This document shows, piece by piece, positions 13,542-31,510 of a stretch of 64,000 nt of DNA (position 1 is the first letter of the stretch; each line of letters begins with the position of its first letter). Source of the DNA: an uncultured Armatimonadota bacterium (GTDB lineage Bacteria > Armatimonadota > Armatimonadia > Armatimonadales > Armatimonadaceae); assembly GCA_903910385.1 (NCBI GenBank), contig CAIVZM010000065.1, positions 1 through 64,000 of the forward strand, given 5' to 3'. Position numbers and translations under genes: made by a program. The notes below the pieces were generated by a model. The model saw nothing but the letters and a program-made list of their open reading frames with translations, did not search any database and was not told where the DNA came from.

Positions 13542-14390
13542 TTAGGAGTCGTCGCCGTCGATTATGCCAAGCGCATGCGGCGCGACTCCTCCCCGAAACA
13601 GGGTAAGAGCGATCAGGGTAATGGCATATGGTAATAGTGTTAGCAAGTCCGGAGGCAAGATAGTCGCCCAGCCGAGCGTCTGCATCGTGACCTGCAATGC
13701 ATCCCCTAACCCAAACAGACAGGCAGCTCCGACCGCTCCTATCGGCGACCATTTACCGAAAATCACGGCGGCAAGCGCAATATATCCCCGTCCCGCCGTC
13801 ATGTTTTCGGTAAAAGCCCCCAAACCGACCAGAGAAAGCGCAGCGCCGCCGGTTCCCGCAAGAATGCCGCTGAAAAAGGACGCCTCGTAGCGTAAACGCA
13901 CTACTGGAATTCCCGCCGAACGTGCGGCGACGGGATTCTCACCGCAGGACTTTAATCGAAGACCGACCGTCGTCCGCGATAGCGCAAAACTGACAAGGAT
14001 CGCGCCAAGAGCGGCGAGTAAGACGATAACGACTGGCGCAATCTGAGGTGCGGATTCATAGAGATCAGAGGACTGACGCAGAGCGAACGTCGTCATTCCC
14101 AACGCCGCCAGATTGATGCCGACCCCGGAAAGCATATGCGGCGTTTTCAGTCGTTGTGTCAAAAAGGCGTGCAACAGACCGATCATTCCCCCGGCGATAG
14201 CCCCAAAAAACAGACCAATAATGGCGTTACCCGTAGCCTTCGCGGCTGCCGCCGCCACGAACGCCCCTGTCAACATAACGCCTTCCAGATGCAACGCGAT
14301 GATCCCGGAGCGCTCCGATACAACGCCGCCTAAAGCCGTAAGAGCAAGGGGAGAGGCGAGCCGTAGTGCGGCGCTAATCAATTCGTACAT
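13542..14390 (-). CDS. ABC transporter permease, nucleoside/BMP type (NupQ/YufQ-like)
   Basis: Membrane permease of the branched-chain/ribose-type ABC family, closest to the nucleoside (NupQ/YufQ) subgroup. It opens with the family-typical ELISAALRLASPLALTALGG and SERSGIIALHLEGVMLTGAF, then 8-9 hydrophobic segments. It pairs with the other permease and the duplicated ATPase encoded just upstream. ATG 14390 matches the family start and overlaps the preceding permease gene by 17 nt; a TTG at 14423 and ATG at 14414 are alternatives. Expected role: import of nucleosides or related purines/pyrimidines. No substrate-binding protein gene is next to it. Confidence 0.9.
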   Translation of the reverse strand: MYELISAALRLASPLALTALGGVVSERSGIIALHLEGVMLTGAFVAAAAAKATGNAIIGLFFGAIAGGMIGLLHAFLTQRLKTPHMLSGVGINLAALGMTTFALRQSSDLYESAPQIAPVVIVLLAALGAILVSFALSRTTVGLRLKSCGENPVAARSAGIPVVRLRYEASFFSGILAGTGGAALSLVGLGAFTENMTAGRGYIALAAVIFGKWSPIGAVGAACLFGLGDALQVTMQTLGWATILPPDLLTLLPYAITLIALTLFRGGVAPHALGIIDGDDS

Positions 14391-15474
14391 CGGCTTTGTG
14401 GTTCTCTCTGCCATCAGCGTCAACGCTGTCGCTGCGGAAATTTCTTCGGATCGGGGTTAATCCCGCTGTCGCGGAGATCGCAACGATTAAAATACCCTGA
14501 ATCACCTGAACGATTTGCTTGGGCGTTCCTACAGAAAACGCCATCGCTTCCGCTCCGGCGTTCATTCCCCCAAAGAGAAGCGCGGCGGGAATCACTCCCC
14601 ATGCGGAACCGCTCGCCAGCAACGCGACGGCAAGACCATCAAATCCATAACCGACCCCGTAGAAATCCGCCGGAAAACGTCGAAAGGGAACTTCGCCCAG
14701 TATCAGGACGGCTCCGGCAAGACCGGCAATCGCCCCCGAAAGGAGCATGGCGGTGACCTGAACGCGCCGAACCGCAATTCCCGCCGCTTCCGCCGCTCCC
14801 TTCCCCTGGCCCACCGCTCGCGTTTCGTAGCCCCAGACGGTATACCGCAACGCCCAGGCGAAAAGGCAAACGAGGATAAGGGCGAGAGGCAGTCCCGCGT
14901 GTACATCGTATGCTGCCCATAGTCTGGGTAAGGTCGCCCCGACCTCCGGCGTTTGGGGAGCTTGCCCTGCCGGGTCTTTCAGGGGATAAGCGGCCAGATA
15001 TCGCGTCAGGTTTTGGGCAATGTAGTTAAACAAGATAGCGGTAATCACTTCATGAACGCCACGTGTGACACGAAGCAAAACAGGAGGAGTCGCCCAGACT
15101 GCGCCAGCCAATGCGCCAACCATGCAAGAGAACGGCAGAAGGCAATAGCCGGGAAGGACATCTTTCAGCCCATACCCGGCGACGGCGGCGGCAAGCCCCC
15201 CTACCGCCATTTGCCCTTCCGCCCCGATATTGAACAAGCCTGCCGAGAGGGCAACCGCTACCGCCATCCCGGTAAGCAATAACGGCATTGTCTGACGCAG
15301 AGTATTCGCCCAACTGCTTGAGGAACCGAATGCTCCCGTAAAAAGAGCGTTATACGCCGCAAAGGGAGCCTTGATATCGTGCTGAAGCGAAGCGATAAGC
15401 GCGCCGCCCAGCAAAAACGCGATAACCAGAGAGAGGCAGGAACGACGAGCCGTTTTCAGGACAGCTCCGGTCAC
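14374..15474 (-). CDS. ABC transporter permease, nucleoside/BMP type (NupP/YufP-like)
   Basis: Second permease of the importer, 366 residues with about ten membrane segments. Family marks include NIGAEGQMAVGGLAAAVAGY, RVTRGVHEVITAILFNYIAQ and GFDGLAVALLASGSAWGV. It starts with GTG at 15474 in a GTGA overlap with the stop codon of the ATPase gene, indicating translational coupling. With the ATPase and the NupQ-like permease it makes a complete transmembrane core. Confidence 0.92.
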   Translation of the reverse strand: MTGAVLKTARRSCLSLVIAFLLGGALIASLQHDIKAPFAAYNALFTGAFGSSSSWANTLRQTMPLLLTGMAVAVALSAGLFNIGAEGQMAVGGLAAAVAGYGLKDVLPGYCLLPFSCMVGALAGAVWATPPVLLRVTRGVHEVITAILFNYIAQNLTRYLAAYPLKDPAGQAPQTPEVGATLPRLWAAYDVHAGLPLALILVCLFAWALRYTVWGYETRAVGQGKGAAEAAGIAVRRVQVTAMLLSGAIAGLAGAVLILGEVPFRRFPADFYGVGYGFDGLAVALLASGSAWGVIPAALLFGGMNAGAEAMAFSVGTPKQIVQVIQGILIVAISATAGLTPIRRNFRSDSVDADGRENHKADVRID

Positions 15475-16994
15475 GATGCCACCACTCCTGTCATAAGCTG
15501 ACCAAGCAGGGTCTCATTGGCTTCCTGTCGGGAAAGGATCGCGACGATTCGCCCGCTCAACATCACCGCTATCCGGTCGGAAAGCGCGAGAATTTCCTGT
15601 AAGTCAAGAGATTGGAACAGCACAGCGACCCCCCGGTCGCGTTCCCGTCGGAGAGCGTTATGAACGAAGGCGGCAGCGGCGAAGTCCAATCCACGTGTTG
15701 GTTGCATCACCGCCACCAGAGATAAATCACGGGAAAGCTCACGAGCGAGAACCAGTTTCTGCTGATTGCCACCCGATAAGGAGCGAACCGGAACGCCGAT
15801 TTCTGCGCCACGCACATCGTAGGCGGCAATTCTATCAGCGAAGAACGCCTGAATCGCAGTTTTATTCAGAATGCCGCTCTTCCGGGAAAACGTTGTCTCC
15901 CGTTGACGCCCCAGAATCATATTTTCCTCACAGGAGAAAGACAGGACAAGCGCCCGTTGATGACGATCTTCCGGGATGTAGGCGATACCGGCATTCCGCC
16001 GAGCCTCGATTGACCAATCGCTGATATCTATACCATTAAGGGAGACTTCTCCCCTGTCCGAGCGTCGCAAGCCGACGACCGCTTCAATCAGTTCCCGCTG
16101 ACCTGAGCCGTCCACACCCGCCAGACCGACGATTTCGCCCGCTCGCACGGTTAGGGATGCTTCGACTACAGATATACTTCCCCGGTGATTGTTAACGCTC
16201 AGCTTTTCCAGATGGAGACGAGTCCCGCCCGGCGTAATCACTTTATTGTCTATCGGTATGTTGAGCCCTGTTTTACCCCCGACCATCGCGGAGGCGATCT
16301 GTTCCGGCGCCGTTTGTGATACTGGTGATGAAAACGTTTTCTCACCGCGACGTAATACCGTCACAAAATCGGCTTCCGCCATTACCTCATCCAGCTTATG
16401 CGTCACGAAAATTATCGTCGTCCCCGTTACGGAGAGTCGTCGGGTCGCTGCCCAGAGTTCGCTGGCTTCAGAAGGCGCAAGCGAGGCTGTAGGTTCATCC
16501 AGTATGAGGATGCGTGCGTTCCGGTAGAGCGCTTTGAGAATTTCTACCCGCTGTTGCGCCGCAATCGAAAGTTCCGCCACACGCACCGAGGGATCGATGG
16601 GCAGGCCGCTTTTCTCCGCCAGATTTCGTACGGTGGATTCAGCGCCCTGTTTATCCAGAAGGATGCCACGACGCATTTCCGCTCCGAGGACGATATTCTC
16701 TGCGACGGTAAACGAAGGAATGAGTTCAAAATGCTGCTGCACCATTCCGATCCCAGAGGCGATAGCGTCTGCGGGCGAGGAGAAGCGTTGCGGTTTTCCG
16801 CCCAGAAGAACATCCCCAGCATCCGGTTGGATCAGACCGAAGAGCGCGCGCATCAGGGTCGATTTTCCGGCTCCGTTCTCTCCTACTACAGCGTTTCGAG
16901 AACCGGGTGGGAACGACAATGTTACCGCATTCAGCGCAATATTTGAGCCAAATGCGACGGTTATCCCGCGCAAAACCACTTCCGGCGTCGTCAT
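15471..16994 (-). CDS. ABC transporter ATP-binding protein with two nucleotide-binding domains (NupO/YufO-like)
   Basis: Fused double ATPase of about 507 residues driving the nucleoside-type importer. The N-terminal domain has a proper Walker A (GENGAGKST), Q-loop region (MVQQHFELIP) and Walker B (LILDEPTASL). In the C-terminal domain the Walker A is degenerate (GVDGSGQRE) while the signature LSGGNQQKL is intact, as usual for RbsA/YufO proteins. The start at 16994 fits the domain boundary; an ATG at 17024 is in frame without a ribosome-binding site. First gene of the three-gene operon reading leftwards. The usual BMP-type lipoprotein gene is missing. Confidence 0.93.
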   Translation of the reverse strand: MTTPEVVLRGITVAFGSNIALNAVTLSFPPGSRNAVVGENGAGKSTLMRALFGLIQPDAGDVLLGGKPQRFSSPADAIASGIGMVQQHFELIPSFTVAENIVLGAEMRRGILLDKQGAESTVRNLAEKSGLPIDPSVRVAELSIAAQQRVEILKALYRNARILILDEPTASLAPSEASELWAATRRLSVTGTTIIFVTHKLDEVMAEADFVTVLRRGEKTFSSPVSQTAPEQIASAMVGGKTGLNIPIDNKVITPGGTRLHLEKLSVNNHRGSISVVEASLTVRAGEIVGLAGVDGSGQRELIEAVVGLRRSDRGEVSLNGIDISDWSIEARRNAGIAYIPEDRHQRALVLSFSCEENMILGRQRETTFSRKSGILNKTAIQAFFADRIAAYDVRGAEIGVPVRSLSGGNQQKLVLARELSRDLSLVAVMQPTRGLDFAAAAFVHNALRRERDRGVAVLFQSLDLQEILALSDRIAVMLSGRIVAILSRQEANETLLGQLMTGVVAS

Positions 16995-17117
16995 CGTGAC
17001 GATTATCGCCGGAAATGGCATCATGAGTCAATTCAATTCCGGATTTCCCAAAAATCCAGACAAGAAAGAGGATTGCTTGGATAATTTGCGTATGCACTGT
17101 TATCCCATTATTGAGAA

Positions 17118-18080: not shown

Positions 18081-21000
18081 TTATTTTCCTGGCAACATTA
18101 CCATCTGAATCACATTGGACGGATTCATATACTTTTGCGCTGCGCTTTTAATTTCGGTGGCATTGAGCGCCTCAGACCGTTGCGCATAGGTTGCGGCGGC
18201 TTCTGCTGTGGCAGGGTCAGCATAACCGGAAAGGAAACGCGCCAGCCAGTATTCGTTGGTACGCAAGTCAACACGATTCTTTTGTCGGAACGTCGCCTTC
18301 ATTTTCGCCATGTCGGCGTCAGTCGGGCCGTTCTCTCGCAAATCGGCGCTAATCTCGGCGACCGCCTTTTCGACTGCGGGAACCTGCGCAGGAGTGGCTC
18401 CAATTACGAACTGCACGATGGAATTTCCTATCGGGACTCGTCGCAGATCGCCGCCAGCATACGGAGAGTAGGCGCTGCCCATATCCTCCCGGATTTTCTC
18501 GATGGTCTTGTTCTCCAGAATATACGAAAGGGCTTCCATGCGCAGATCATCCTGCGGCGTAAAGGGGACTTCATTGCGATACATCACCATAATGTTCGCC
18601 TTGTCTTCGGTTCCCTTTCGGACGGTCTTTTCCAGTTTGCCTTTCGGAGCGCGAACATTCCTGTCTTTAAAGGCGGGTTTGATCGGTCGGGAAGGCAGTC
18701 CGCCCAGATACTTCGCCAGCAAGGGCTTAACCGTTTCTGGCTTGATGCTCCCGACAATATAGAACTGATATCCATATGCATTCCCAAACCGTTCCTGATG
18801 GATTTGCAGACTTCGGGTCAGGGAAACTTTGTCTACATCGGCAGTAGTAGGAGTTCGAGTCGCATACGGGTTACCGCCCGCAAGCAGGTCATACAGGCTT
18901 GCCTGAAAAAAGACATCCGGATTATTGCGCTGTGTCGCTACATAGGAACGCGTTTGAGCTATCTCCGCCTTGAAGAGCGCTTCATCCTTCCGGGGCGCGG
19001 TCATTTTGAGATAGAGCAATTGCAACATCGTCTCAAAGTCTTTGACATTGCTTGCGCCATTTACGCTGTCATGGTACGGAGTTATCGAAAGAGAGGCGTT
19101 CGCATTTCTGCCGGTCAGCAGGCGGTTCAACTGTGTCGGGTTGAACGCGCCGTAGCCCATAGCCCCAACAATACCGGTTGCGAATTGCGCGGAAGGCAGA
19201 TCCGGGACATTGTAAAGCAACGAGCCGCCATAGCGCGTACCGCCCAGAAGAATTTGATCATTCTTGAAATCGGTCGCCTTTACCGTCACAGTGACGCCGT
19301 TACTGAAGGCGTAGGTGGTGGCTCCATCTCGCTGATTGACCGTCGTTTTCGTAATCTGACCGGGGATCGGAGCATTGGGCAACAACGTCTTCGCCGTCAC
19401 CGTTTCGGCGTAAGGTGTCACTTTTGCCGTGCGGGCGTTGTTCAGGGACGCCAGCAATTGCGATTCCGACGGTAACGGAGTTTTTGTCGCGCCGGGCGCC
19501 AGGATCATAGAAAAGGGACGTACTCGCGGATCGGATGTCAATCGTCCCTTCTGTCCGTTGATATCCGACACGGAAATGGCAGGTAACGCCTTGCGGACAA
19601 AATCATACTCCCAGACGACTCCGGGCGCGGCGTCCCCTTCCAGATGATGCGTGATCAATTCTTCGGCGAGCCGAGAGGATTCGATCTTGTCCTTTTCCTT
19701 CGCGGACTGCTCGTAGTTCTGCAACACTTCCGCTTTCGCACGCGCCAGTTCCGCTTCCGTGAATCCGAAACGGCGGACACGTTCCACTTCGGTCGTCAGG
19801 ACGGTAGCGGTTTTTACCGGGTCTCCGCTGGTGCCGCCGACGATGGTCAATGCCTCATATCCGCGCAAAAACCCTCCCCGGGACGCCTGACCGAACAGGA
19901 AAGGGCGATCCGGGCGTTGTCCGACCTCATACAGTCGGGCGTTCATCATCTGGTTGAACAGTTGATCCACTAACGAGGCGCGATAGGCGGCGACATTGGT
20001 GACAGGCTGGCGACGGCGGAAATACTGAATCGTCAACGTCTGCGAGGCGGGCAATTCCTTATCCGTCAGAATCATCGCTTCCGCCTTTTCGCGCTCTGCA
20101 ATCGGCGTGATAGTCGGACGTGGCGTCGGATTATCTGGCATCTTCAACTGCCCAAACAATTCCTGAATCTTCTTTTTGGTAGCCTGTACATCGACATCGC
20201 CCACGACGATGATTGCTTGCAGATCGGGACGATACCACTGTTTGTAAAACGACCTCACTTTGTCCGGAGTGAAGTTTTTCAGTACATCCTCATCGCCAAT
20301 CGGGATACGCTCCGCGTAACGGCTACCGTTCAAAACACGCGGGAAGTACTGTTTCCGTAAACGTTCCTGGGCGCTCTTTCCATCACGGAGTTCCGAAAGC
20401 ACGACCCCGCGCTCTCGATTGATCTCATCCGCATCCAGAGTCGCTTCCCCGGCCCATTCCTTGAGAATCTCCAGCCCTTTATCGAAGTTGGCGGGTTCCG
20501 TTGTCGGAACGGGAAGAATATACACCGTTTCATCGAAACTTGTGTAAGCGTTCAAATCCGCGCCAAAACGGATTCCCAGACCCTGAAGATAGTTCACCAG
20601 TTCATTCTTGGGGTAACCCGGAGTCCCGTTGAACATCATGTGTTCGAGGAAATGGGCGAGACCGCGTTGTTCCTCGGATTCCAGAATGGAACCGGCATTC
20701 ACTACCAGACGCATCTCCGCCTTTTGCGCGGGATAACTGTTGCGCCGGATGTAATAGGTCAAACCATTATTCAGTTTGCCGGAAATAATATCGGGAGCCA
20801 GGGCGGGAATGCCTGCATTCTCCGCCGGGCGCGACCCCGCGGCAAGAGGCGACGCGGGGACGCGAATCAAGACCAAATCCACCTTGCTGGGAGCCTTGTT
20901 GGTCAGGACAGCGTAGCGGGTGTCATTGATGAAAGTCAGTTTTCCTGCGATAGTGATACGGGCAGATACCGCATAGGTGTGATTGGGAATAATGGTCTTC

Positions 21001-21884
21001 GGCTCGTAGGAAATCGAAAACGGAAACGGCGCCTGCTTGCCATTCGCCTTCATCATTTGTTTCCCGAGAGTTTTCGCCGGAGCGTCCGCCAGCGAGACAT
21101 CCGCCAGAGTCACTTCGATGACCGCATCCGGCGGTAACGCCATCCGCTCCCGGTACGTCACCGTTCCTGTCACCTTTGCTGAACCGGCAGGAGAAACCGG
21201 TTTCTGACCAGATAAAGCGGCGGGAGCGACATATTTCCCGGCGATGACCTTATCCAGATCGAGTTTTTCCACCTTTGCGGGTTTTGCGGTGTCAAAGTCG
21301 CCGGTGGCGGGTTCTCCAGCGGGATAAGTAGTCAGGGACACGACGCCGCCAGCGGCAGTTCCAAACCGGGCGAATTTCCGCTCCCATATCGCGCCTTTTT
21401 CCGGGTCTACCAGAGCGGCTGTCGGCGCGCCCAGAGCGCTATCCTTGCTGGTGACCAGAACGATATTCTTACCGGAACGCGTCTTCGTCGGCGCCACATT
21501 GGTAATGTACGCCTGCGACATGTAGAGAATCTTTTTCCGCCCGCTGTCCATTTCGTAGCGAATCAGTGTCTGCCCTTCATTCTCGAAACCGCGACCCATA
21601 CGGTCAGAGACCGCATAAAGAACGGTCTGGTTATCCTTCGAGAGCCAAAATCGCGTCACATCATAAGCGACTATTTTGCTGTTTCCCGCACTTTTGGCGT
21701 AAAGCTTTCCAGAGGGCGCATCGCTATGGTCACGCACCAGACGAACGCGTCCATCGGGAGACGTTGTCACTGCCTGATTTTGTGCATGGGAAGGAGCGCC
21801 CGTTAGCCACAGAGAGATAGAGACAGCAAGAACCCAAAGCATTGTCTTAGTTGACCGCCTTGGATGTCGTAATTCAGAATACAT
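18081..21884 (-). CDS. M16 zinc peptidase fused to beta-propeller-like and YscW/YbaY-like domains
   Basis: Very long (1267 residues) secreted M16-type metallopeptidase. Order: signal peptide (ending near GAPSHAQ); residues about 35-215, WD/TolB-propeller-like strands (TLIRYEMDSGRKKILYMS and similar); about 235-345, a beta-sandwich resembling YscW/YbaY lipoproteins (VTGTVTYRERMALPPDAVIE ... YAVSARITIAG); then the M16 core. The inverted zinc motif HFLEH is at 411-415, with the downstream RGVVLSE glutamate about 80 residues later; inactive M16 repeats follow to the C-terminus, as in bacterial PqqL-like proteins. The start may be ATG 21884 or ATG 21842. Two-domain M16 proteins are usually 900-950 residues, so the first 350 residues are extra. 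It appears monocistronic. Confidence 0.92.
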   Translation of the reverse strand: MYSELRHPRRSTKTMLWVLAVSISLWLTGAPSHAQNQAVTTSPDGRVRLVRDHSDAPSGKLYAKSAGNSKIVAYDVTRFWLSKDNQTVLYAVSDRMGRGFENEGQTLIRYEMDSGRKKILYMSQAYITNVAPTKTRSGKNIVLVTSKDSALGAPTAALVDPEKGAIWERKFARFGTAAGGVVSLTTYPAGEPATGDFDTAKPAKVEKLDLDKVIAGKYVAPAALSGQKPVSPAGSAKVTGTVTYRERMALPPDAVIEVTLADVSLADAPAKTLGKQMMKANGKQAPFPFSISYEPKTIIPNHTYAVSARITIAGKLTFINDTRYAVLTNKAPSKVDLVLIRVPASPLAAGSRPAENAGIPALAPDIISGKLNNGLTYYIRRNSYPAQKAEMRLVVNAGSILESEEQRGLAHFLEHMMFNGTPGYPKNELVNYLQGLGIRFGADLNAYTSFDETVYILPVPTTEPANFDKGLEILKEWAGEATLDADEINRERGVVLSELRDGKSAQERLRKQYFPRVLNGSRYAERIPIGDEDVLKNFTPDKVRSFYKQWYRPDLQAIIVVGDVDVQATKKKIQELFGQLKMPDNPTPRPTITPIAEREKAEAMILTDKELPASQTLTIQYFRRRQPVTNVAAYRASLVDQLFNQMMNARLYEVGQRPDRPFLFGQASRGGFLRGYEALTIVGGTSGDPVKTATVLTTEVERVRRFGFTEAELARAKAEVLQNYEQSAKEKDKIESSRLAEELITHHLEGDAAPGVVWEYDFVRKALPAISVSDINGQKGRLTSDPRVRPFSMILAPGATKTPLPSESQLLASLNNARTAKVTPYAETVTAKTLLPNAPIPGQITKTTVNQRDGATTYAFSNGVTVTVKATDFKNDQILLGGTRYGGSLLYNVPDLPSAQFATGIVGAMGYGAFNPTQLNRLLTGRNANASLSITPYHDSVNGASNVKDFETMLQLLYLKMTAPRKDEALFKAEIAQTRSYVATQRNNPDVFFQASLYDLLAGGNPYATRTPTTADVDKVSLTRSLQIHQERFGNAYGYQFYIVGSIKPETVKPLLAKYLGGLPSRPIKPAFKDRNVRAPKGKLEKTVRKGTEDKANIMVMYRNEVPFTPQDDLRMEALSYILENKTIEKIREDMGSAYSPYAGGDLRRVPIGNSIVQFVIGATPAQVPAVEKAVAEISADLRENGPTDADMAKMKATFRQKNRVDLRTNEYWLARFLSGYADPATAEAAATYAQRSEALNATEIKSAAQKYMNPSNVIQMVMLPGK

Positions 21885-21919: not shown

Positions 21920-22222
21920 TTATATTCGTCCCGCCTTCCGACAATGACCGCATGTATGAATAAAAGCAACACCGCTACCCCACTTCGTATCCACCCAGTC
22001 GTGAAGTTTTTCCTGAGAAGTCGCGCACACTTTGATATAGGACTGCGTCCAATGAATCTTATGTGTCGCCTTTTGAGGGTTTATGCAATGACAGTCCGCT
22101 CTGTGAACCGAGATATATTCCGGGCGAGGCGGGTTCCACGACACCAGAACGAACCCCTGCGGATGAGACTGCATCCAATGTCGATATCCTGCCTCATCAT
22201 TGGCGAACACTTCCACAATCAT
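21920..22222 (-). CDS. Small conserved Cys/His-rich protein of unknown function
   Basis: About 100 residues, no signal peptide. The pattern is one I have seen in many unannotated bacterial proteins: an N-terminal YRHWMQSHPQGFVLVSWNPP, then SVHRADCHCI, and a C-terminal HTCGHC. The Cys/His clusters could form a metal site. AGGGGAGGG directly abuts the ATG at 22222, too close for initiation; the in-frame GTG at 22216 (third codon) has better spacing and may be the real start. It lies between the M16 gene and the PhyH operon, with 15 nt to the latter's stop, so read-through from that operon is possible. Confidence 0.75.
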   Translation of the reverse strand: MIVEVFANDEAGYRHWMQSHPQGFVLVSWNPPRPEYISVHRADCHCINPQKATHKIHWTQSYIKVCATSQEKLHDWVDTKWGSGVAFIHTCGHCRKAGRI

Positions 22223-22237: not shown

Positions 22238-23002
22238 TTAGGAAAACTTAAGAATTGCATCATCAGGACTGACCGGGCAGGGGTGCTGCTCCGATGTTTT
22301 CTTGCCGCCGGCGAATTCCGTTAACTGCGGGTTCCCCAGAGCGTTGTAGCAAATGATAAATGAACGCCGGTGCGTCGCGGAATCGTTTGAACCGGATGTG
22401 TGAAGCAGATTGCTATGAAAGAAGAGGGCGTCTCCCGGTTCCATCAGGCAATGAACGCGATCAAAAAGCGGTTCCAGTTGATGAATCCGTCCCGGATCCG
22501 CTCCAGTCTGCGCCCCCACTTTGCCATGCTCCAGTCGTCCCAGCATATGAGAGCCTTTTAAAACCTGGAGACAACCATTCTCCACCGTGCATTTATCCAG
22601 AGCGACGAAGACCGAAATCAAACGCGGAAAGACGAAGCCCTGATTGTACCAGTACCCGTAATCCTGATGCCATTCCCAGGCGCCGCCCGTTCCCGCTTCT
22701 TTGAGCATCACCTTGCCGTGAAAGAAGGCGGCTTCTTCGCGCAGAAGCAGGCGCACTCCGTTGACGATACGCGGATTCGTCGAGACCGCCGCCCAGATAT
22801 CGTCGCCGAGTTCGTGCCAGATGGCGAGTTTCGCCTTACGCCCGGAGGCATCCTCATTTCCCCGTGTATGAGAAACCACACGGCTATTGCCCCCTTCGAC
22901 ATCGTTCAGCATAGCGCGGATTTCGGCGGGCGTAAACAATCCGGGTACAAGCAACGACCCTTCTCGCTTGTACTGGTCAACGTGTTCTTCGGTTATGTAC
23001 AT
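22238..23002 (-). CDS. Phytanoyl-CoA dioxygenase (PhyH) family protein
   Basis: Fe(II)/2-oxoglutarate-dependent dioxygenase of 254 residues. The iron triad is visible as H112 and D114 in WHQDYGYW and H201 in HTSGSN; an Arg pair at 212-213 probably binds 2-oxoglutarate. Substrates of bacterial PhyH proteins vary widely (small hydroxylatable metabolites, halogenation). GAGGGG lies 7 nt before the ATG. It is the last gene of a minus-strand set: Gfo/Idh, sugar isomerase, Gfo/Idh, PhyH. The gap to the preceding Gfo/Idh gene is 36 nt, so it is probably co-transcribed and acts on the same carbon source. Confidence 0.92.
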   Translation of the reverse strand: MYITEEHVDQYKREGSLLVPGLFTPAEIRAMLNDVEGGNSRVVSHTRGNEDASGRKAKLAIWHELGDDIWAAVSTNPRIVNGVRLLLREEAAFFHGKVMLKEAGTGGAWEWHQDYGYWYNQGFVFPRLISVFVALDKCTVENGCLQVLKGSHMLGRLEHGKVGAQTGADPGRIHQLEPLFDRVHCLMEPGDALFFHSNLLHTSGSNDSATHRRSFIICYNALGNPQLTEFAGGKKTSEQHPCPVSPDDAILKFS

Positions 23003-23038
23003 GATTCACCCCTCTTTTTTGCAAGCCTGATTAGATCT

Positions 23039-24184
23039 TCAAATCGTTCGAACTGCGCCAGGAACCTTGCCGATTCCCTCATTGGCAGCGGAGATCGCCG
23101 CAAAGCATAACGCCAGACTCTGGAGGTTTTCCCGGGCGTTGTTTGTGGGAATCCGGTCTTCTTCGATAGCGCACAGTAACTCCCCCATCGTTCCATGAAA
23201 GCCATCGTTGAACCAGGTTCCGGTCAGTTCAGGAGTTGCGGTTCCCTCCGCGGTGTGAAGAGTGACCGACTGCTCGCCCAGATTCGGCCCGACACTGATC
23301 AGGGAGCCTTGGCTTCCGCCGATATAGGTGGCGTCCTGCGCTCCATACAACAACGGCGCATCGAAAATCAGCGAGGCTTGCCCACCGTCGAATTCAAGGA
23401 TGCACTGCGCCAGCATCGGAGGCTTGATATTTTGCCCCTGAGCATAGGAACGAGAAGCCTGAATCCGATTCGCTTTACGACCGGACGACTGCAGCAAAGT
23501 CGTCACAAAGTCAAACCAGTGAATGGCGAAATCGTAAAGGACGACATCGTGAATATTCTCGAATGCGGTTCCCTTGACCCAAGTATGATCCCAGTGAATG
23601 GAGATATGCGCGGAGACCAGATCGCCGATGACGCCCGCCTTGACCGCCTCACGCATATACGAAAGATGCGGCGCCCATCGCCCATTCTGATTGACAGCAA
23701 GTTTGACGCCCTTCTTATCGGCAAGGTCACAAAGGCGTTCCCCGTCATCCAGATTCAGAACGAACGGCTTTTGTGAAAGGACATGTTTCCGGGCGTTCAA
23801 CGCCGCTTCAATCAACGGCAGGCGATCCGCAGGATGAGTTGCGATATCTACAACCTCGATATCGTCGCGACACAATATCTCATCGGCTTCTGCGGTGGTT
23901 ATCGCATCCGGATAAAACTCCGCCCGCCGGGATTCCGCTCGCGCCAAGTTCGCATCACACAGGGCGACAACCTGATAACCGGCGCCGGAATACGCGGACA
24001 GATGCGCGGCGGTTATTCCTCCGCAACCAATGAGCGCGATACGGGGACGATACCCCTTCGGATCACGCGGAAGGTACGGAAGTTCCGGGGCGGCGAAAAC
24101 GCCGCCCGTCGAACGCCCTTTGAGAGCGTAGTCGTCTTTTAACGCCTTTTGATCATCGGTGTCCGTAGATATAATTTCGCTCAA
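23039..24184 (-). CDS. Gfo/Idh/MocA family oxidoreductase
   Basis: NAD(P)-dependent dehydrogenase of 381 residues for a sugar, cyclitol or related polyol. After about 50 residues the Rossmann signature GCGGITAAHLSAYSGAGY appears, then the hallmark loss-of-hand EKP-type motif in the form SQKPFVLN, and the C-terminal beta-sheet domain (IHWFDFVTTLL). It overlaps the preceding sugar-isomerase gene by 4 nt, so translational coupling is likely. The EKP lysine is present. The substrate is unknown. Confidence 0.93.
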   Translation of the reverse strand: MSEIISTDTDDQKALKDDYALKGRSTGGVFAAPELPYLPRDPKGYRPRIALIGCGGITAAHLSAYSGAGYQVVALCDANLARAESRRAEFYPDAITTAEADEILCRDDIEVVDIATHPADRLPLIEAALNARKHVLSQKPFVLNLDDGERLCDLADKKGVKLAVNQNGRWAPHLSYMREAVKAGVIGDLVSAHISIHWDHTWVKGTAFENIHDVVLYDFAIHWFDFVTTLLQSSGRKANRIQASRSYAQGQNIKPPMLAQCILEFDGGQASLIFDAPLLYGAQDATYIGGSQGSLISVGPNLGEQSVTLHTAEGTATPELTGTWFNDGFHGTMGELLCAIEEDRIPTNNARENLQSLALCFAAISAANEGIGKVPGAVRTI

Positions 24185-25035
24185 AGGTTGTTTTCCTGCG
24201 CTTCGGTCAGCAAGGGGTTACCTTCCTTGAATTTCTTCGAGGACAGGTTTTCGGCATTTTGCCGATCCCAGAGTTTCCGGGCGAGAACGCGACGGACTTC
24301 CGCCAGTTGCAGGGCGATTTCCGCATATTCGTTCTGCGCGGAGTGGTGCTCTACCCCCCAATAGCCCTTATAACCGGCATTGAGTAGCAAATCGATCTTA
24401 TCCGCCAGTCTGCCGCCGAACGTGATATTCCGGTCAACATGCGTATGAATCGTGTAAGGCGCAAGGCGGCGGTCGCCTTCATCTGGATCGCCCAGTTCCC
24501 AGTGACCGATATGCAGGAGAATCCCGTATCCGGGGTGATCCACCGCTTTCACGATTGCATCCATGTTGTCCGCCAGCAGGGAAATGCCCCAGTGCGTCTC
24601 TGGTCCGACGGTGAAGCCATGCTCCTCCCCGAAGACGCAGTACTCGCGAAACTTCGACGAGATGTAGTCCAGTTGCTTCGGCGTCATCGGTTCCAGACGC
24701 CCGCCGGTATCGATACGAACAGTCTTCGCACCAAGAGTCGCCGCCGCTTTGAGTTCCTTCAACGCCTTCTGATAATTGCGCTCGCGCGCTTCCGGATCAT
24801 CCTCCCAGACATGGCAACCGTCCGCATGGTAATTGACCAGCGTCAATTCCTTTTCATCCTGCGCCTGCTTGACCTTACGGATGACATCTTCATCGGTCGT
24901 TCCGATGAGGCCGTTCCAGATATCCGCCGTATTCAATCCATACCGATAGCGGCACGATTCCAGATACCCGAAAATGTCGATCTTGCCTTCGGCAAGCAAT
25001 CCATGGACGCTATAACCAGCGATAGAAATATTCAT
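24181..25035 (-). CDS. Sugar phosphate isomerase/epimerase family, xylose-isomerase-like TIM barrel
   Basis: 284-residue AP-endonuclease-2-type TIM barrel of the IolE/IolI/xylose isomerase-like group. Metal-site candidates are E in VGPETHWG, the LHIGHWELGDPDEGDRR stretch and E in WGVEHHS, in the expected order along the barrel. No signal peptide. It sits between two Gfo/Idh dehydrogenase genes, a classic pairing for isomerisation or epimerisation of an oxidised sugar or inositol. AGGA precedes the ATG at 25035. Confidence 0.92.
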   Translation of the reverse strand: MNISIAGYSVHGLLAEGKIDIFGYLESCRYRYGLNTADIWNGLIGTTDEDVIRKVKQAQDEKELTLVNYHADGCHVWEDDPEARERNYQKALKELKAAATLGAKTVRIDTGGRLEPMTPKQLDYISSKFREYCVFGEEHGFTVGPETHWGISLLADNMDAIVKAVDHPGYGILLHIGHWELGDPDEGDRRLAPYTIHTHVDRNITFGGRLADKIDLLLNAGYKGYWGVEHHSAQNEYAEIALQLAEVRRVLARKLWDRQNAENLSSKKFKEGNPLLTEAQENNL

Positions 25036-25085
25036 AGGTTGTTCCTGATGCGACGCTCTGACCGTCTCAGGCAGAGCGAGAATAG

Positions 25086-26180
25086 TTATGGCAATAGTTT
25101 GACAGTGCGCTTTTCTCGCGCCGAAAGGACGGCGCTATCCACGATCTGCTGTCCAACCCGGCATAAGACCGGGTCAAGCGGACCTTCAACCTTTTCGCCG
25201 GTGGAAAGACAGTGGATCAGATATTCCAACGGATTGCGACGGGGCGCCGATAATTCATCTACAGGAACTTCGTGCGTTTCCGGGTTCTCCGTTGTTTGGA
25301 GACGTATGACGGGTTCGTAATCGTAACTCGAAATCGTGCCTTTCGTCCCCATCACGACAAATCCGCATTTGGGTTGCGGTTGCAATGTCCAGGGGTCAGT
25401 GAAAGTCCCCCACCGTGTCTCGTATTTGGAAAGCCCGACATCATATCGGCAGATTGTGACCGAGTGTTCGTCGACTTCCAGACCCGCCTTTTCATCGACC
25501 ATCGAACAAACTTCGATAGGCGCTTTACCGCCATGAAACCAGGTTCCCAGGGTGACGCCATAGCCGAGATAATCGAGTAAAGAACCTCCGCCCGCCGCCT
25601 TTTGGTACCACCATGCCAGTGACTTTTGCCGTGCCGCTTCTTCGGCGCCGATTTCCTCTTTGTCAGCAATATGGCGGAGCGGCCCCCGGTTCCCATCGTA
25701 ATAATGCACTTCGACAACTTCACCGATGACGCCTTCGGTAATCAGTCGGTGCGTTGTCACATGGGGCGGATACCAGGCGAGCGGCCAGTTGATCACCATC
25801 GTTTTGCCGGATTGTTGCATGGCGGCGATCATTCGGTCCGCATCAGCAAGGGAAGCCGCAAAGGGTTTTTCTACCAGCACATTCACGCCATATGGTGCGA
25901 CCCATTCGACATAATCGCCATGTTCACCGGTTTTTGGACAAAGAATGACGATATCAGGCTTCGTCGTTTCGATACACTGCCGGAAATCCGTAAAAACGCG
26001 CTCGTCAGGAATTCCGAACTTCTCTATTGTCCCCTGCATTCGCGCCCGGTCAGCGTCCGCGACTCCGACAATTTCCGCATTCGGGTTTTCATGTGTCAGA
26101 CGCAGGAGGTCACCCATATGCATATGGTCGAAGTTAATTCCCGCCACACGCCAAATCTTCGTTGATGCCGTCTCGCTCAT
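25086..26180 (-). CDS. Gfo/Idh/MocA family oxidoreductase
   Basis: First gene of the operon, 364 residues. The N-terminus (WRVAGINFDHMHMGDLLRLT) is a variant Rossmann loop, with His residues where most members have GxGxxG. The EKP motif is VLVEKPFAASL. The C-terminal domain contains SLAWWYQKAAGGGSLLDYLG, the usual active-site helix region. It probably oxidises a sugar or sugar derivative handed on to the isomerase and second dehydrogenase downstream. The upstream spacer of 74 nt is shared with the divergent SUMF1-like gene and contains the inverted repeat cttga-gaa-tcaag near 26204-26216. Confidence 0.93.
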   Translation of the reverse strand: MSETASTKIWRVAGINFDHMHMGDLLRLTHENPNAEIVGVADADRARMQGTIEKFGIPDERVFTDFRQCIETTKPDIVILCPKTGEHGDYVEWVAPYGVNVLVEKPFAASLADADRMIAAMQQSGKTMVINWPLAWYPPHVTTHRLITEGVIGEVVEVHYYDGNRGPLRHIADKEEIGAEEAARQKSLAWWYQKAAGGGSLLDYLGYGVTLGTWFHGGKAPIEVCSMVDEKAGLEVDEHSVTICRYDVGLSKYETRWGTFTDPWTLQPQPKCGFVVMGTKGTISSYDYEPVIRLQTTENPETHEVPVDELSAPRRNPLEYLIHCLSTGEKVEGPLDPVLCRVGQQIVDSAVLSAREKRTVKLLP

Positions 26181-26254
26181 GCCCTAAGCGTACCAGAATC
26201 AGGGCTTGAGAATCAAGACCGAACTTTAACCACTTCACCGAACGTAGATATTCT

Positions 26255-27091
26255 GTGAAAACTACGATTATTCCGATGCAGCGACATTCGCTGGCAGCGC
26301 TGACAGTTTTGGCGCTGGCGACAGCGGGTGTCTTTGCCGCAGGGCGACTTACCGGCGTCATCCGTCCAGAGGTTTCAGCGACGACGCAGGCAAAGGAGCG
26401 GGCGGCGACCCCTCCCGGTATGGTCTATGTCCCCGGCGGAGATTTCTATCAGGGTTCGGACGACCCGGACGCTGATCCAGAAGTCAAACCGCGCCATAGC
26501 GTCTTTGTCCCATCGTACTACATTGACCGCACCGAGGTGACGAACCGGGAGTTCAAACGTTTCCGACCCGATTTCGTCTATCCCCTCGGCGAAGACAACT
26601 TCCCGGCGACCAACATTATCTACGATGACGCGGCGGCGTTCGCGAAATGGGCGTGCAAGGAAATCCCGACCCCGGAGCAGTGGGAGAAAGCCGCACGAGG
26701 AACCGACGGTCGCCGCTTCCCTTGGGGCGATACATGGGATAAATCCCGCGTCGCGGCACGGGCGAAGACCCTCGGCGTTCCTGCTCCGAAGTTGCCTGAA
26801 TCCGCCCCGCAACAGAAGGTGGCAGGGTGCCGCCTCGGCCCGACGCGCGTGCAACCGGTCGGCTCGAATTTAACGGGAGCGAGTCCGTATGGCGCACTGG
26901 ATATGGCAGGGAACGCCTGGGAATGGGTTCAGGGCTACTATCTCAACAACCCCAATCAACGGGTTCTGCGCGGCGGAGCCGTGGGCTACGGCGAACGCGC
27001 CAACCGCACCTATGAACGCGCCGTCGAAGGCTCCCAGACCACCTGCCGCGACACCGGATTCCGTTGCGCGAAAGCGGTGAATGGCATCTGA
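26255..27091 (+). CDS. SUMF1/formylglycine-generating-enzyme-like secreted protein
   Basis: 278 residues with an N-terminal hydrophobic export or anchor segment, then a complete SUMF1 (FGE-sulfatase) fold: MVYVPGGDFYQGSD, YYIDRTEVTNREFKRF, PTPEQWEKAARG, RFPWGDTW, YGALDMAGNAWEWV, RVLRGGAVGYG and a terminal DTGFRC. In true formylglycine-generating enzymes two cysteines lie between the RGG strand and GFRC (human Cys336 and Cys341). Here that stretch (NRTYERAVEGSQTT) has neither, so sulfatase activation is unlikely. Such domains often serve as carbohydrate- or protein-binding modules. GTG 26255 or ATG 26276 may be the start. Divergent from the Gfo/Idh operon. Confidence 0.88.
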   Translation: MKTTIIPMQRHSLAALTVLALATAGVFAAGRLTGVIRPEVSATTQAKERAATPPGMVYVPGGDFYQGSDDPDADPEVKPRHSVFVPSYYIDRTEVTNREFKRFRPDFVYPLGEDNFPATNIIYDDAAAFAKWACKEIPTPEQWEKAARGTDGRRFPWGDTWDKSRVAARAKTLGVPAPKLPESAPQQKVAGCRLGPTRVQPVGSNLTGASPYGALDMAGNAWEWVQGYYLNNPNQRVLRGGAVGYGERANRTYERAVEGSQTTCRDTGFRCAKAVNGI

Positions 27092-30265: not shown

Positions 30266-31510
30266 ATGAAGATTACCGAAGTGCGGGTGATTGTCACCTG
30301 TCCGGGGCGCAACTATGTGTGCGTCAAGATTATGACGGATGAAGGTCTGTACGGCGTCGGGGATGCCACTCTCAATGGACGGGAGTTAGCGGTAGCGGCG
30401 GCTTTGCAAGAACATATCGCCCCGTTGCTGATAGGTCGTGACCCGGAGCGCATTGAGGATATTTGGCAGTCGCTGTTTCGCGGTTCTTACTGGCGAGGCG
30501 GTCCCATCCAGATGACAGCAATTGCCGGAGTCGATATGGCCCTCTGGGATATCAAGGGAAAGCAGGCGGGATTACCCCTGTATCAACTACTCGGCGGGAA
30601 AACGCGCGAAGGGGCGCTCTGCTATACCCATGCCGGGGGGCGGGACGCCATCGAAGTGGAAGATAATGTCCGTAAATCCCTCGAACGAGGGTTCGAGGTG
30701 ATTCGAGCGCAGGTAGCGGTCCCGAAAGCGATTGGGACATACGGAACGGGCGGCGCGGCGGAAGCCGCTTCTGCATCATGGGCGGGCGCAACGGCGGAAG
30801 GAGTCGGCGACGGTGGCCCTATGCCTTATGTCGAGGCGAACTGGGAGCCACGTGAATATCTGAAGATTGTCCCGAAACTTTTCGCGCATCTCCGCTCGAC
30901 TCTGGGTGAGGATGTCGAACTGCTTCACGATGTCCACGAGCGCCTGAATCCGATCGAAGCCGCACGGTTGGCGCGTGAACTGGAACCGTATCACCTGTTC
31001 TTTCTGGAAGACCCGCTTCGTCCGGAACACAAGGAATCGTTCCGAATGGTGCGTAATGCATCCACAACCCCGATTGCCATGGGGGAACTGTTCCATACGA
31101 AATATGACTGCCTGCCGTTGTTCACCGAGCAGTTGATCGATTTTATCCGTTGTGACCTGACCCATATCGGCGGCGTCACGGAGGCGACAAAGATCGCCGC
31201 CCTCGCGGAACCTTTCCAGATCAAGACAGCATGGCACGGTCCCGGCGATATCGCCCCGATGGCGCATTCCGCCAATGTCCATGTGGATGTTTCCATTCCC
31301 AACTTCGGCATTCAGGAAATGGTATTCTTCCCTGATATTGTGCAAGAGGTTCTACCTGGCGCTCCCGTGTATCGTGAGGGTCGTCTCTGGCCCAACGAAG
31401 CGCCCGGTCTCGGATGCGATATCAACGAGGAAGCGGCGGCGAAATACCCGTATCAACGCAACTACTTGCCCGTCTGTCGTCGCGCCGACGGCGCCGTACA
31501 CGACTGGTAA
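30266..31510 (+). CDS. Mannonate dehydratase-like enolase-superfamily enzyme (ManD/RspA family)
   Basis: 414-residue member of the mandelate racemase/enolase superfamily, ManD branch, which dehydrates D-mannonate (or D-gluconate) to 2-keto-3-deoxygluconate. The three metal ligands are D222 (LLHDVHERL), E248 (FLEDPL) and E274 (MGELFH). H224 next to the first ligand, plus R147 and Y159, sit where I remember the catalytic residues of efficient ManDs. A long active-site loop (161-188, Gly/Ala-rich) matches the family's variable loop. Whether it is a high-activity ManD or an RspA-type low-activity homologue cannot be decided here. Strong promoter at 30188-30216 and a hairpin terminator at 31522-31567 make it monocistronic. 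Confidence 0.92.
   Translation: MKITEVRVIVTCPGRNYVCVKIMTDEGLYGVGDATLNGRELAVAAALQEHIAPLLIGRDPERIEDIWQSLFRGSYWRGGPIQMTAIAGVDMALWDIKGKQAGLPLYQLLGGKTREGALCYTHAGGRDAIEVEDNVRKSLERGFEVIRAQVAVPKAIGTYGTGGAAEAASASWAGATAEGVGDGGPMPYVEANWEPREYLKIVPKLFAHLRSTLGEDVELLHDVHERLNPIEAARLARELEPYHLFFLEDPLRPEHKESFRMVRNASTTPIAMGELFHTKYDCLPLFTEQLIDFIRCDLTHIGGVTEATKIAALAEPFQIKTAWHGPGDIAPMAHSANVHVDVSIPNFGIQEMVFFPDIVQEVLPGAPVYREGRLWPNEAPGLGCDINEEAAAKYPYQRNYLPVCRRADGAVHDW

Follow-up and report, generated by a model that had tools for sequence, protein, structure and literature searches.

The lgd pathway, which in Bacillus smithii is encoded by lgdA–lgdB1–lgdB2–lgdC, proceeds through oxidation, elimination, hydration and reduction (PMC7676230). 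The accessible portion of that report describes a levoglucosan dehydrogenase, eliminating and hydrating enzymes annotated as 'sugar phosphate isomerase', and, for the reduction of 3-keto-glucose, a member of the Gfo/Idh/MocA family; LgdB2 alone was suggested there to be capable of both elimination and hydration. In the DgpA/DgpB-C and OGE systems, 3-oxidation is followed by the action of a metal-dependent TIM barrel whose catalytic His lies two residues past a metal ligand, and DgpA is described, in the available part of the source, as a Gfo/Idh/MocA enzyme (PMC11239390). For the eliminases, the accessible sections report a Glu147/His149 pair, the metal ligand Asp179 and Lys271 in AgCGD2 (PMC8563793), and His132/His134 with the metal ligand Asp163 in AtOGE, the catalytic His again being two residues past a ligand (PMC10628242); the His of this pair is presented as the base that removes the C2 proton. 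Here we compare with these systems a gene group from an uncultured Armatimonadota bacterium (GenBank assembly GCA_903910385.1, contig CAIVZM010000065.1, positions 1 to 64,000 of the forward strand; this whole stretch of 64,000 nucleotides is hereafter called the window). Its four minus-strand genes encode, in this order, a Gfo/Idh/MocA oxidoreductase (GfoA), a TIM-barrel protein (TIM, P0003), a second Gfo/Idh/MocA oxidoreductase (GfoB) and a member of the Fe(II)/2-oxoglutarate dioxygenases (PhyH, P0001).

We tentatively read these genes, with a probability of about 0.45, as a catabolic operon for a glycoside, an anhydrosugar or an otherwise modified sugar, which would be degraded by keto-activation in a variant of the oxidation–elimination–reduction route, with a dioxygenase added. 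The most likely scheme is modelled on the lgd pathway and the 3-keto-glycoside eliminases; its chemistry, step order, metal, division of roles between the two Gfo/Idh enzymes, hydration, methyl group and substrate are inferred. One Gfo/Idh enzyme, most likely GfoB, would oxidize a ring hydroxyl, probably that at C3, to a ketone. His148 of TIM would then take the neighbouring proton, a divalent metal bound to E146, H175, H199 and E229 would at the same time polarize the ketone, and TIM would thereby eliminate the group two carbons away. After water has added to the unsaturated keto-sugar, reduction of the product to a usable sugar, with recycling of the cofactor, would be the task of the remaining Gfo/Idh protein, most likely GfoA. 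PhyH may modify the same compound, either ahead of these steps or following them; hydroxylation or oxidative O-demethylation, with a methylated sugar as substrate, would be the likeliest reaction.

The four genes are spaced by 50, -4 and 36 nt, the start of GfoB overlapping the stop of TIM by 4 nt. Their packing is thus tight. They had been called an operon in an earlier interpretation made from the letters of the window (the sequence-only reading). The five open reading frames (ORFs) listed there, namely these four and a divergent SUMF1-like gene, were also confirmed, with their family labels, by an ORF check and by Pfam. PhyH matched PF05721 with 120.1 bits (cut-off 22), TIM matched AP_endonuc_2 (PF01261) with 65.3 bits (cut-off 31.1), the two Gfo/Idh proteins matched PF01408 with 70 and 66 bits, and the SUMF1-like protein matched FGE-sulfatase (PF03781) with 129.1 bits (cut-off 23.3).

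The distribution of the genes was surveyed in 291 genomes of the phylum Armatimonadota. With presence thresholds of E <= 1e-90 for GfoA, E <= 1e-75 for PhyH and E <= 1e-60 for TIM, GfoA was found in 19 genomes, PhyH (57-76% identity) in 5 and TIM in 38. Of the 18 other genomes with GfoA, 13 had GfoB following it on the same strand (G004, G010, G011, G022, G034, G036, G093, G101, G114, G116, G146, G148 and G181), with GfoB cut by the contig end in G004 and a 526-nt gap containing a small ORF between the two genes in G034. As for the remaining five, TIM, GfoA and GfoB each lay on separate contigs in G005 and G009, no GfoB was visible in the fetched stretch around GfoA in G090 and G150, and the contig of G115 stopped after GfoA, so adjacency was not judged there. 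GfoB at an identity of at least 44% occurred in 9 of 100 relatives, all of them within the 10 GfoA genomes of that set (p 5e-12); homologues at 33-36% identity in G038, G042, G055, G067 and G078 were excluded as orthologues. All 5 PhyH genomes likewise fell within the 19 GfoA genomes (p 1.1e-5, own genome left out); not counted were a second homologue in G093 and, among 101 genomes (E up to 1e-25), PhyH homologues of at most 48% identity in 12 additional ones. The 13/18 adjacency and the co-occurrence with GfoA of 9/9 GfoB and 5/5 PhyH show that GfoA–GfoB forms a genuine module, of which PhyH is a genuine partner. In G036, PhyH lies within a TIM–PhyH–Gfo–TIM block. Separately, G022 has an AraC-type regulator gene with three PhyH-family genes downstream of it (L104:6656-11215), the first being a 69%-identical relative of the PhyH in the window.

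The neighbourhood of GfoA–GfoB in the relatives is sugar-catabolic. In G148 (L112:3590-11444) the order is SDR, ROK kinase, SIS sugar isomerase, FAD oxidoreductase, TIM, GfoA and GfoB, and similar sets with SDR, SIS, TIM, GfoA and GfoB were found in G146 and G181 (L111 and L114). G010 and G011 exhibit a GH127-family gene (a fragment at the contig end in G010), GfoA, GfoB, SDR, SIS, a methionine-synthase-like gene and a lactonase-like gene. A GH35 gene adjoins the pair in G101, and GfoB of G009 is flanked by GH123-type and GxGYxYP genes. The SIS gene, at an identity of at least 68%, was present in 7 of 10 GfoA genomes and in 2 others among the 100 relatives (p 2.5e-7); it was not found in the genome of the window at E 1e-30. 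That genome, which consists of 84 contigs, holds six matches to PF06439 (3-keto-disaccharide hydrolase family), all on other contigs.

TIM was also found to group with dehydrogenases of this family. A same-strand Gfo/Idh gene lay within 250 bp of TIM in 9 of 39 distinct loci, compared with about 0.7 expected (distant genes 2/210); the p value of 4e-8 is a guide only, because the loci are related. The number of loci is 39 instead of 41 since L031 and L127, and L032 and L136, are the same contigs. Immediately upstream of the GfoA–GfoB pair, G146 and G148 have a different TIM gene that is not orthologous; in G181 yet another one is found a gene further up, behind a phosphotriesterase-family gene. 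The 9/39 loci and the different TIM genes of these three genomes show that a TIM gene has come together with two dehydrogenases repeatedly, by more than one route.

Both oxidoreductases keep their catalytic residues. In GfoA, the EKP lysine K105, D203 and Tyr207, the last in place of the usual His, were invariant in all rows of a 19-row alignment. Aldose-aldose and glucose-fructose oxidoreductases use Tyr at this position, and both enzymes were among the best solved relatives of GfoA. The nucleotide loop of GfoA reads GINFDHMH instead of GxGxxG, and F17-D18-H19-x-H21 was invariant in 19/19; judged from this loop, cofactor binding may differ from the canonical mode. A structure of GfoA predicted from the single sequence was discarded because of its low predicted local distance difference test score (pLDDT of 32). 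In GfoB, the QKP lysine and a DFxIH motif were kept in the 8 relatives read (row L100 was left out). The top two solved matches of GfoB were DgpA glycoside 3-dehydrogenases, with E values of 1.6e-15 and 1.4e-14 over the N-terminal domain. The NCBIfam models for disaccharide 3-dehydrogenase and levoglucosan dehydrogenase matched GfoB below cut-off; for the latter (NF052479, 650 bits needed), GfoB reached 46.7 and GfoA 36.5 bits.

For TIM, the residues E146, H148, H175, H197, H199, E229 and H231 were invariant in 40/40 distinct sequences. This count was not taken from the 42-row alignment A1, which lacks L042 and L136 and includes two distant TIM sequences. Strand 5 carries E-T-H (E146-x-H148), the counterpart of Glu147/His149 in AgCGD2 and of His132/His134 in AtOGE, whereas YcjR has E-P-L-N there, without a His. 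TIM shares its fold with the eliminases: its predicted model (pLDDT of 85.8) could be superimposed on 7bvr by VIA-align with a Z score of 23.7 and a root-mean-square deviation of 2.7 over 234 aligned residues, at 18% identity. Because the model matches epimerases and eliminases alike, the fold leaves lyase and epimerase undecided; the E-x-H pair, as found in 3-keto-glycoside eliminases and missing its His in YcjR, favours a putative lyase. The TIM proteins encoded beside GfoA–GfoB in G146 and G148 carry H-x-H, D, H and E, which is the ligand set given for AtOGE in the available text of PMC10628242, and the one near the pair in G181 carries E-x-H, D, H and E. The non-orthologous TIM of G148 gave a weak iolE match (62 of 290 bits) and no PDB match with phmmer. 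The subfamily with His at strand 6 occurs in the phylum and in one Treponema and one Clostridia metagenome-assembled genome (loci L031-L044 and L116-L142). No substrate clue was found at the Treponema and Clostridia loci, the neighbours being an FtsX/ABC set with a glutamate-synthase-domain gene, and an AraC regulator with a carboxylesterase.

The Fe ligands of PhyH, H112-x-D114 and H201, were invariant in 5/5 sequences. P0001 matches human PHYHD1 (2opw) with E 1.6e-8; leucine hydroxylase, ectoine hydroxylase and others match it better, these being enzymes that hydroxylate amino acids and other compounds. PHYHD1-like O-demethylases share with PhyH the Pfam family PF05721 and the kept Fe ligands. 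According to the accessible part of one report, O-demethylation of 2'-O-methyl nucleosides is catalysed by PF05721 enzymes, among them bacterial ones, and some tested members did not demethylate (PMC12709175). By analogy with this activity, a methylated sugar is a fair guess for the substrate of PhyH. A more specific version of our proposal appears rather doubtful: in an undescribed pathway, an O-methylated or otherwise O-alkylated sugar or glycoside would be demethylated oxidatively by PhyH, and a Gfo/Idh–TIM–Gfo/Idh set, with a new E-H-H-E metal site in the TIM lyase and a non-canonical loop in GfoA, would open or rearrange the sugar through keto-activated elimination.

Several observations weigh against the keto-activation reading as a whole. 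The sequence-only reading had named a lack of conservation of the gene order as a refuting outcome, and for GfoA–TIM–GfoB–PhyH this outcome came about, since not one of the 18 other genomes with GfoA among the 291 showed that order; the exact four-gene set is a local arrangement of this genome, while its parts recur in relatives. PhyH adjoins GfoB in one other genome only (G093), and TIM was present in 5 of the 18 other GfoA genomes, which is not a significant association (p 0.06). No NCBIfam model was reached at cut-off by GfoA or GfoB. The best NCBIfam model for GfoB is iolG (inositol 2-dehydrogenase, 83.3 of 355 bits needed), and inositol 2-dehydrogenase 4hkt matches residues 48-367 of GfoB, nearly its full length, with E 2.2e-14, almost equal to DgpA. 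In TIM, H175 of strand 6 aligns to the Asp of the solved structures 4ovx and 3wqo and replaces the strand-6 Asp ligand of the eliminases DgpB-C and OGE, and TIM has no Lys at the position of Lys271 of AgCGD2. Foldseek and VIA-align ranked epimerases and eliminases together and were unable to separate them. In comparison with the DgpB-C and OGE systems, no small beta-subunit gene was recognized among the operon ORFs by a Pfam scan. Finally, two lyase/hydratase genes are described in the accessible text on the lgd pathway, and the operon here has a single TIM; this is not a fatal gap, because LgdB2 may perform elimination and hydration alone (PMC7676230). PhyH is not mentioned in that portion of the lgd report.

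The sequence-only reading had proposed oxidation, epimerisation and reduction of a sugar. On the model of E. coli ycjQRS, a 3-keto-sugar would be formed, TIM would epimerise the adjacent carbon and the second dehydrogenase would reduce the product. By annotation, these three genes encode in a row a D-guloside 3-dehydrogenase, a 3-dehydro-D-guloside 4-epimerase and a D-glucoside 3-dehydrogenase, so that the E. coli cluster, which would interconvert glucosides and gulosides, resembles the window in its dehydrogenase–TIM–dehydrogenase order. It differs in having no PhyH, and YcjQ is not known as a Gfo/Idh enzyme. In the Foldseek ranking, P0003 fell among sugar 3-epimerases and YcjR (6wn6) stood at rank 40, and the top of the VIA-align list consisted mostly of epimerases and isomerases. 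These rankings come from a fold that is indecisive on its own, whereas the residues of P0003 depart from those of YcjR at strand 5, His stands for Asp at strand 6, and E-x-H is the eliminase motif in the available sections of PMC8563793. Epimerisation is unlikely. What could be retained of the proposal is the pair of Gfo/Idh enzymes with catalytic residues kept around TIM and the statistical link of PhyH; the epimerase gave way to residues of lyase type.

It is also conceivable, with similarly low odds, that there is no single pathway: GfoA–GfoB, joined by PhyH in some lineages, would form one sugar module, and the TIM of another route would have been inserted between the pair in this lineage. 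TIM genomes are mostly without GfoA, only 6 of the 38 being shared, own genome included. The separate contigs in G005 and G009 fit this view, as does the finding that 11 of the 13 other adjacent-pair genomes had no P0003 orthologue at E 1e-60. The 4-nt overlap of TIM with GfoB, the preference of TIM loci for Gfo/Idh neighbours and the different TIM at or near the pair in three genomes speak against an accidental insertion.

Cyclitol breakdown is the weakest alternative. GfoA and GfoB would be inositol or inosamine dehydrogenases, TIM an inosose dehydratase-like lyase and PhyH a demethylase of O-methyl-inositol, in parallel with MocA, MocC and MocDEF of rhizopine catabolism. Of these, MocC has a TIM-barrel fold and MocDEF acts as a demethylase. 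The GfoB matches to iolG and 4hkt, the weak match of the TIM profile to the IolE structure 3cny (E 6e-5) and the iolE match of the G148 TIM are in its favour, and O-methyl-cyclitols may serve as substrate. Rhizopine catabolism uses mocBA, mocC and mocDEF, according to the available part of PMC10107442. An inositol- or scyllo-type compound, as considered in the sequence-only reading, is nevertheless quite improbable, as every match stayed below its family cut-off, P0003 itself matched no NCBIfam model, iolE included, and iolB, the one iol gene searched for, was absent from 10/10 genomes, own included, with positive controls in 3/14 (B. subtilis, C. vibrioides and C. glutamicum).

What the sequence-only reading observed is real, with its extent overstated. 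Its interpretation was right in kind, since oxidative sugar chemistry is retained, and wrong or unsupported in its details, namely the epimerase, a shared control region and a conserved four-gene pathway. Of the genomes examined, this one alone had the exact gene set; the chemistry belongs to a kind already known from the lgd and the C-/O-glycoside 3-keto pathways. No published description of this PhyH–Gfo–TIM set was found by title, in a search whose coverage left out most subscription journals.

Neither the divergent SUMF1 gene nor the inverted repeat seems to be part of the pathway. Both the 74-nt gap between GfoA and SUMF1, which had been taken for a shared control region, and the repeat CTTGA-GAA-TCAAG (26205-26217) exist. 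Perfect repeats of 5 bp with a 3-nt loop were found in 8.2% of random 74-mers from the window (46% for loops of 0-10), and with one mismatch allowed the repeat had 3 matches in the window compared with 1.7 expected. In the 300 nt preceding GfoA, both the repeat and its 4-bp core were missing from each of the 17 relatives examined, out of 18 (L096 was excluded). As an operator the repeat was therefore rejected, its frequency being at chance level. No promoter-like site was detected in the divergent gap by a promoter/terminator scan, and the scan of the region was uninformative (5 promoter-like sites compared with 3.6 expected, and 11 terminator-like sites compared with 6.5 expected).

Relatives of SUMF1 with 60-61% identity were found in G005, G006 and G009, and in G005 and G009 they were not on the contig of GfoA; no SUMF1 relative was detected at E up to 1e-8 in 23 fetched GfoA, GfoB or PhyH loci. 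GfoA was present in two of the three genomes with a close SUMF1 relative (p 0.026), all three belonging to the window's own family. Despite this co-occurrence, SUMF1 was rejected as a pathway partner, and the link to the operon made in the sequence-only reading was not confirmed. The cysteines of P0005 are located only at positions 134, 192, 264 and 271, and none falls in the stretch RGGAVGYGERANRTYER, which we take to be the expected place of the formylglycine-generating active-site Cys pair.

PhyH had been placed at the end of the operon. It need not end the transcript, because a same-strand ORF of 100 residues and, after 35 nt more, a gene for an M16-type peptidase of 1267 residues lie directly behind it. 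The 23 fetched loci contained no homologue of the 100-residue ORF at E up to 1e-8. The peptidase (18081-21884) carries a YscW-type domain (PF09619, E 7e-38), an odd-looking combination. Further along the same strand, at 13542-17024, ABC transporter genes of the sugar/nucleoside type encode an ATPase and two BPD_transp_2 permeases, which could form a putative importer of the substrate. At 30266-31510, a D-mannonate dehydratase (ManD) was recognized just above cut-off (NCBIfam, 553.2 compared with 550 bits). The features of the locus are collected in the following table.

Table. Genes of the GfoA–TIM–GfoB–PhyH locus and its flanks, with positions in the window.
Feature	Position	Strand	Basis
GfoA, Gfo/Idh/MocA oxidoreductase	25086..26180	minus	Pfam PF01408, solved relatives, 19-row alignment
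TIM (P0003), xylose-isomerase-like TIM barrel, predicted keto-sugar lyase	24181..25035	minus	Pfam, alignment, predicted model
GfoB, Gfo/Idh/MocA oxidoreductase	23039..24184	minus	Pfam PF01408, NCBIfam, solved matches
PhyH (P0001), Fe(II)/2-oxoglutarate dioxygenase, candidate O-demethylase or hydroxylase	22238..23002	minus	Pfam PF05721, iron ligands
ORF of 100 residues without Pfam or NCBIfam match, possibly co-transcribed	21920..22222	minus	15 nt past PhyH
Divergent secreted-looking SUMF1-fold protein (P0005), judged outside the pathway	26255..27091	plus	PF03781

Glycan bonds can be broken by keto-activated, non-hydrolytic cleavage of glycosides, a route recognized only recently. The survey defines a conserved GfoA–GfoB module with PhyH and the SIS sugar isomerase as its statistical partners, as well as a subfamily of predicted TIM lyases with an altered metal site, mostly from a phylum with little biochemistry. 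If PhyH were indeed a sugar O-demethylase, demethylation by an oxygenase would be joined here to keto-activated cleavage.

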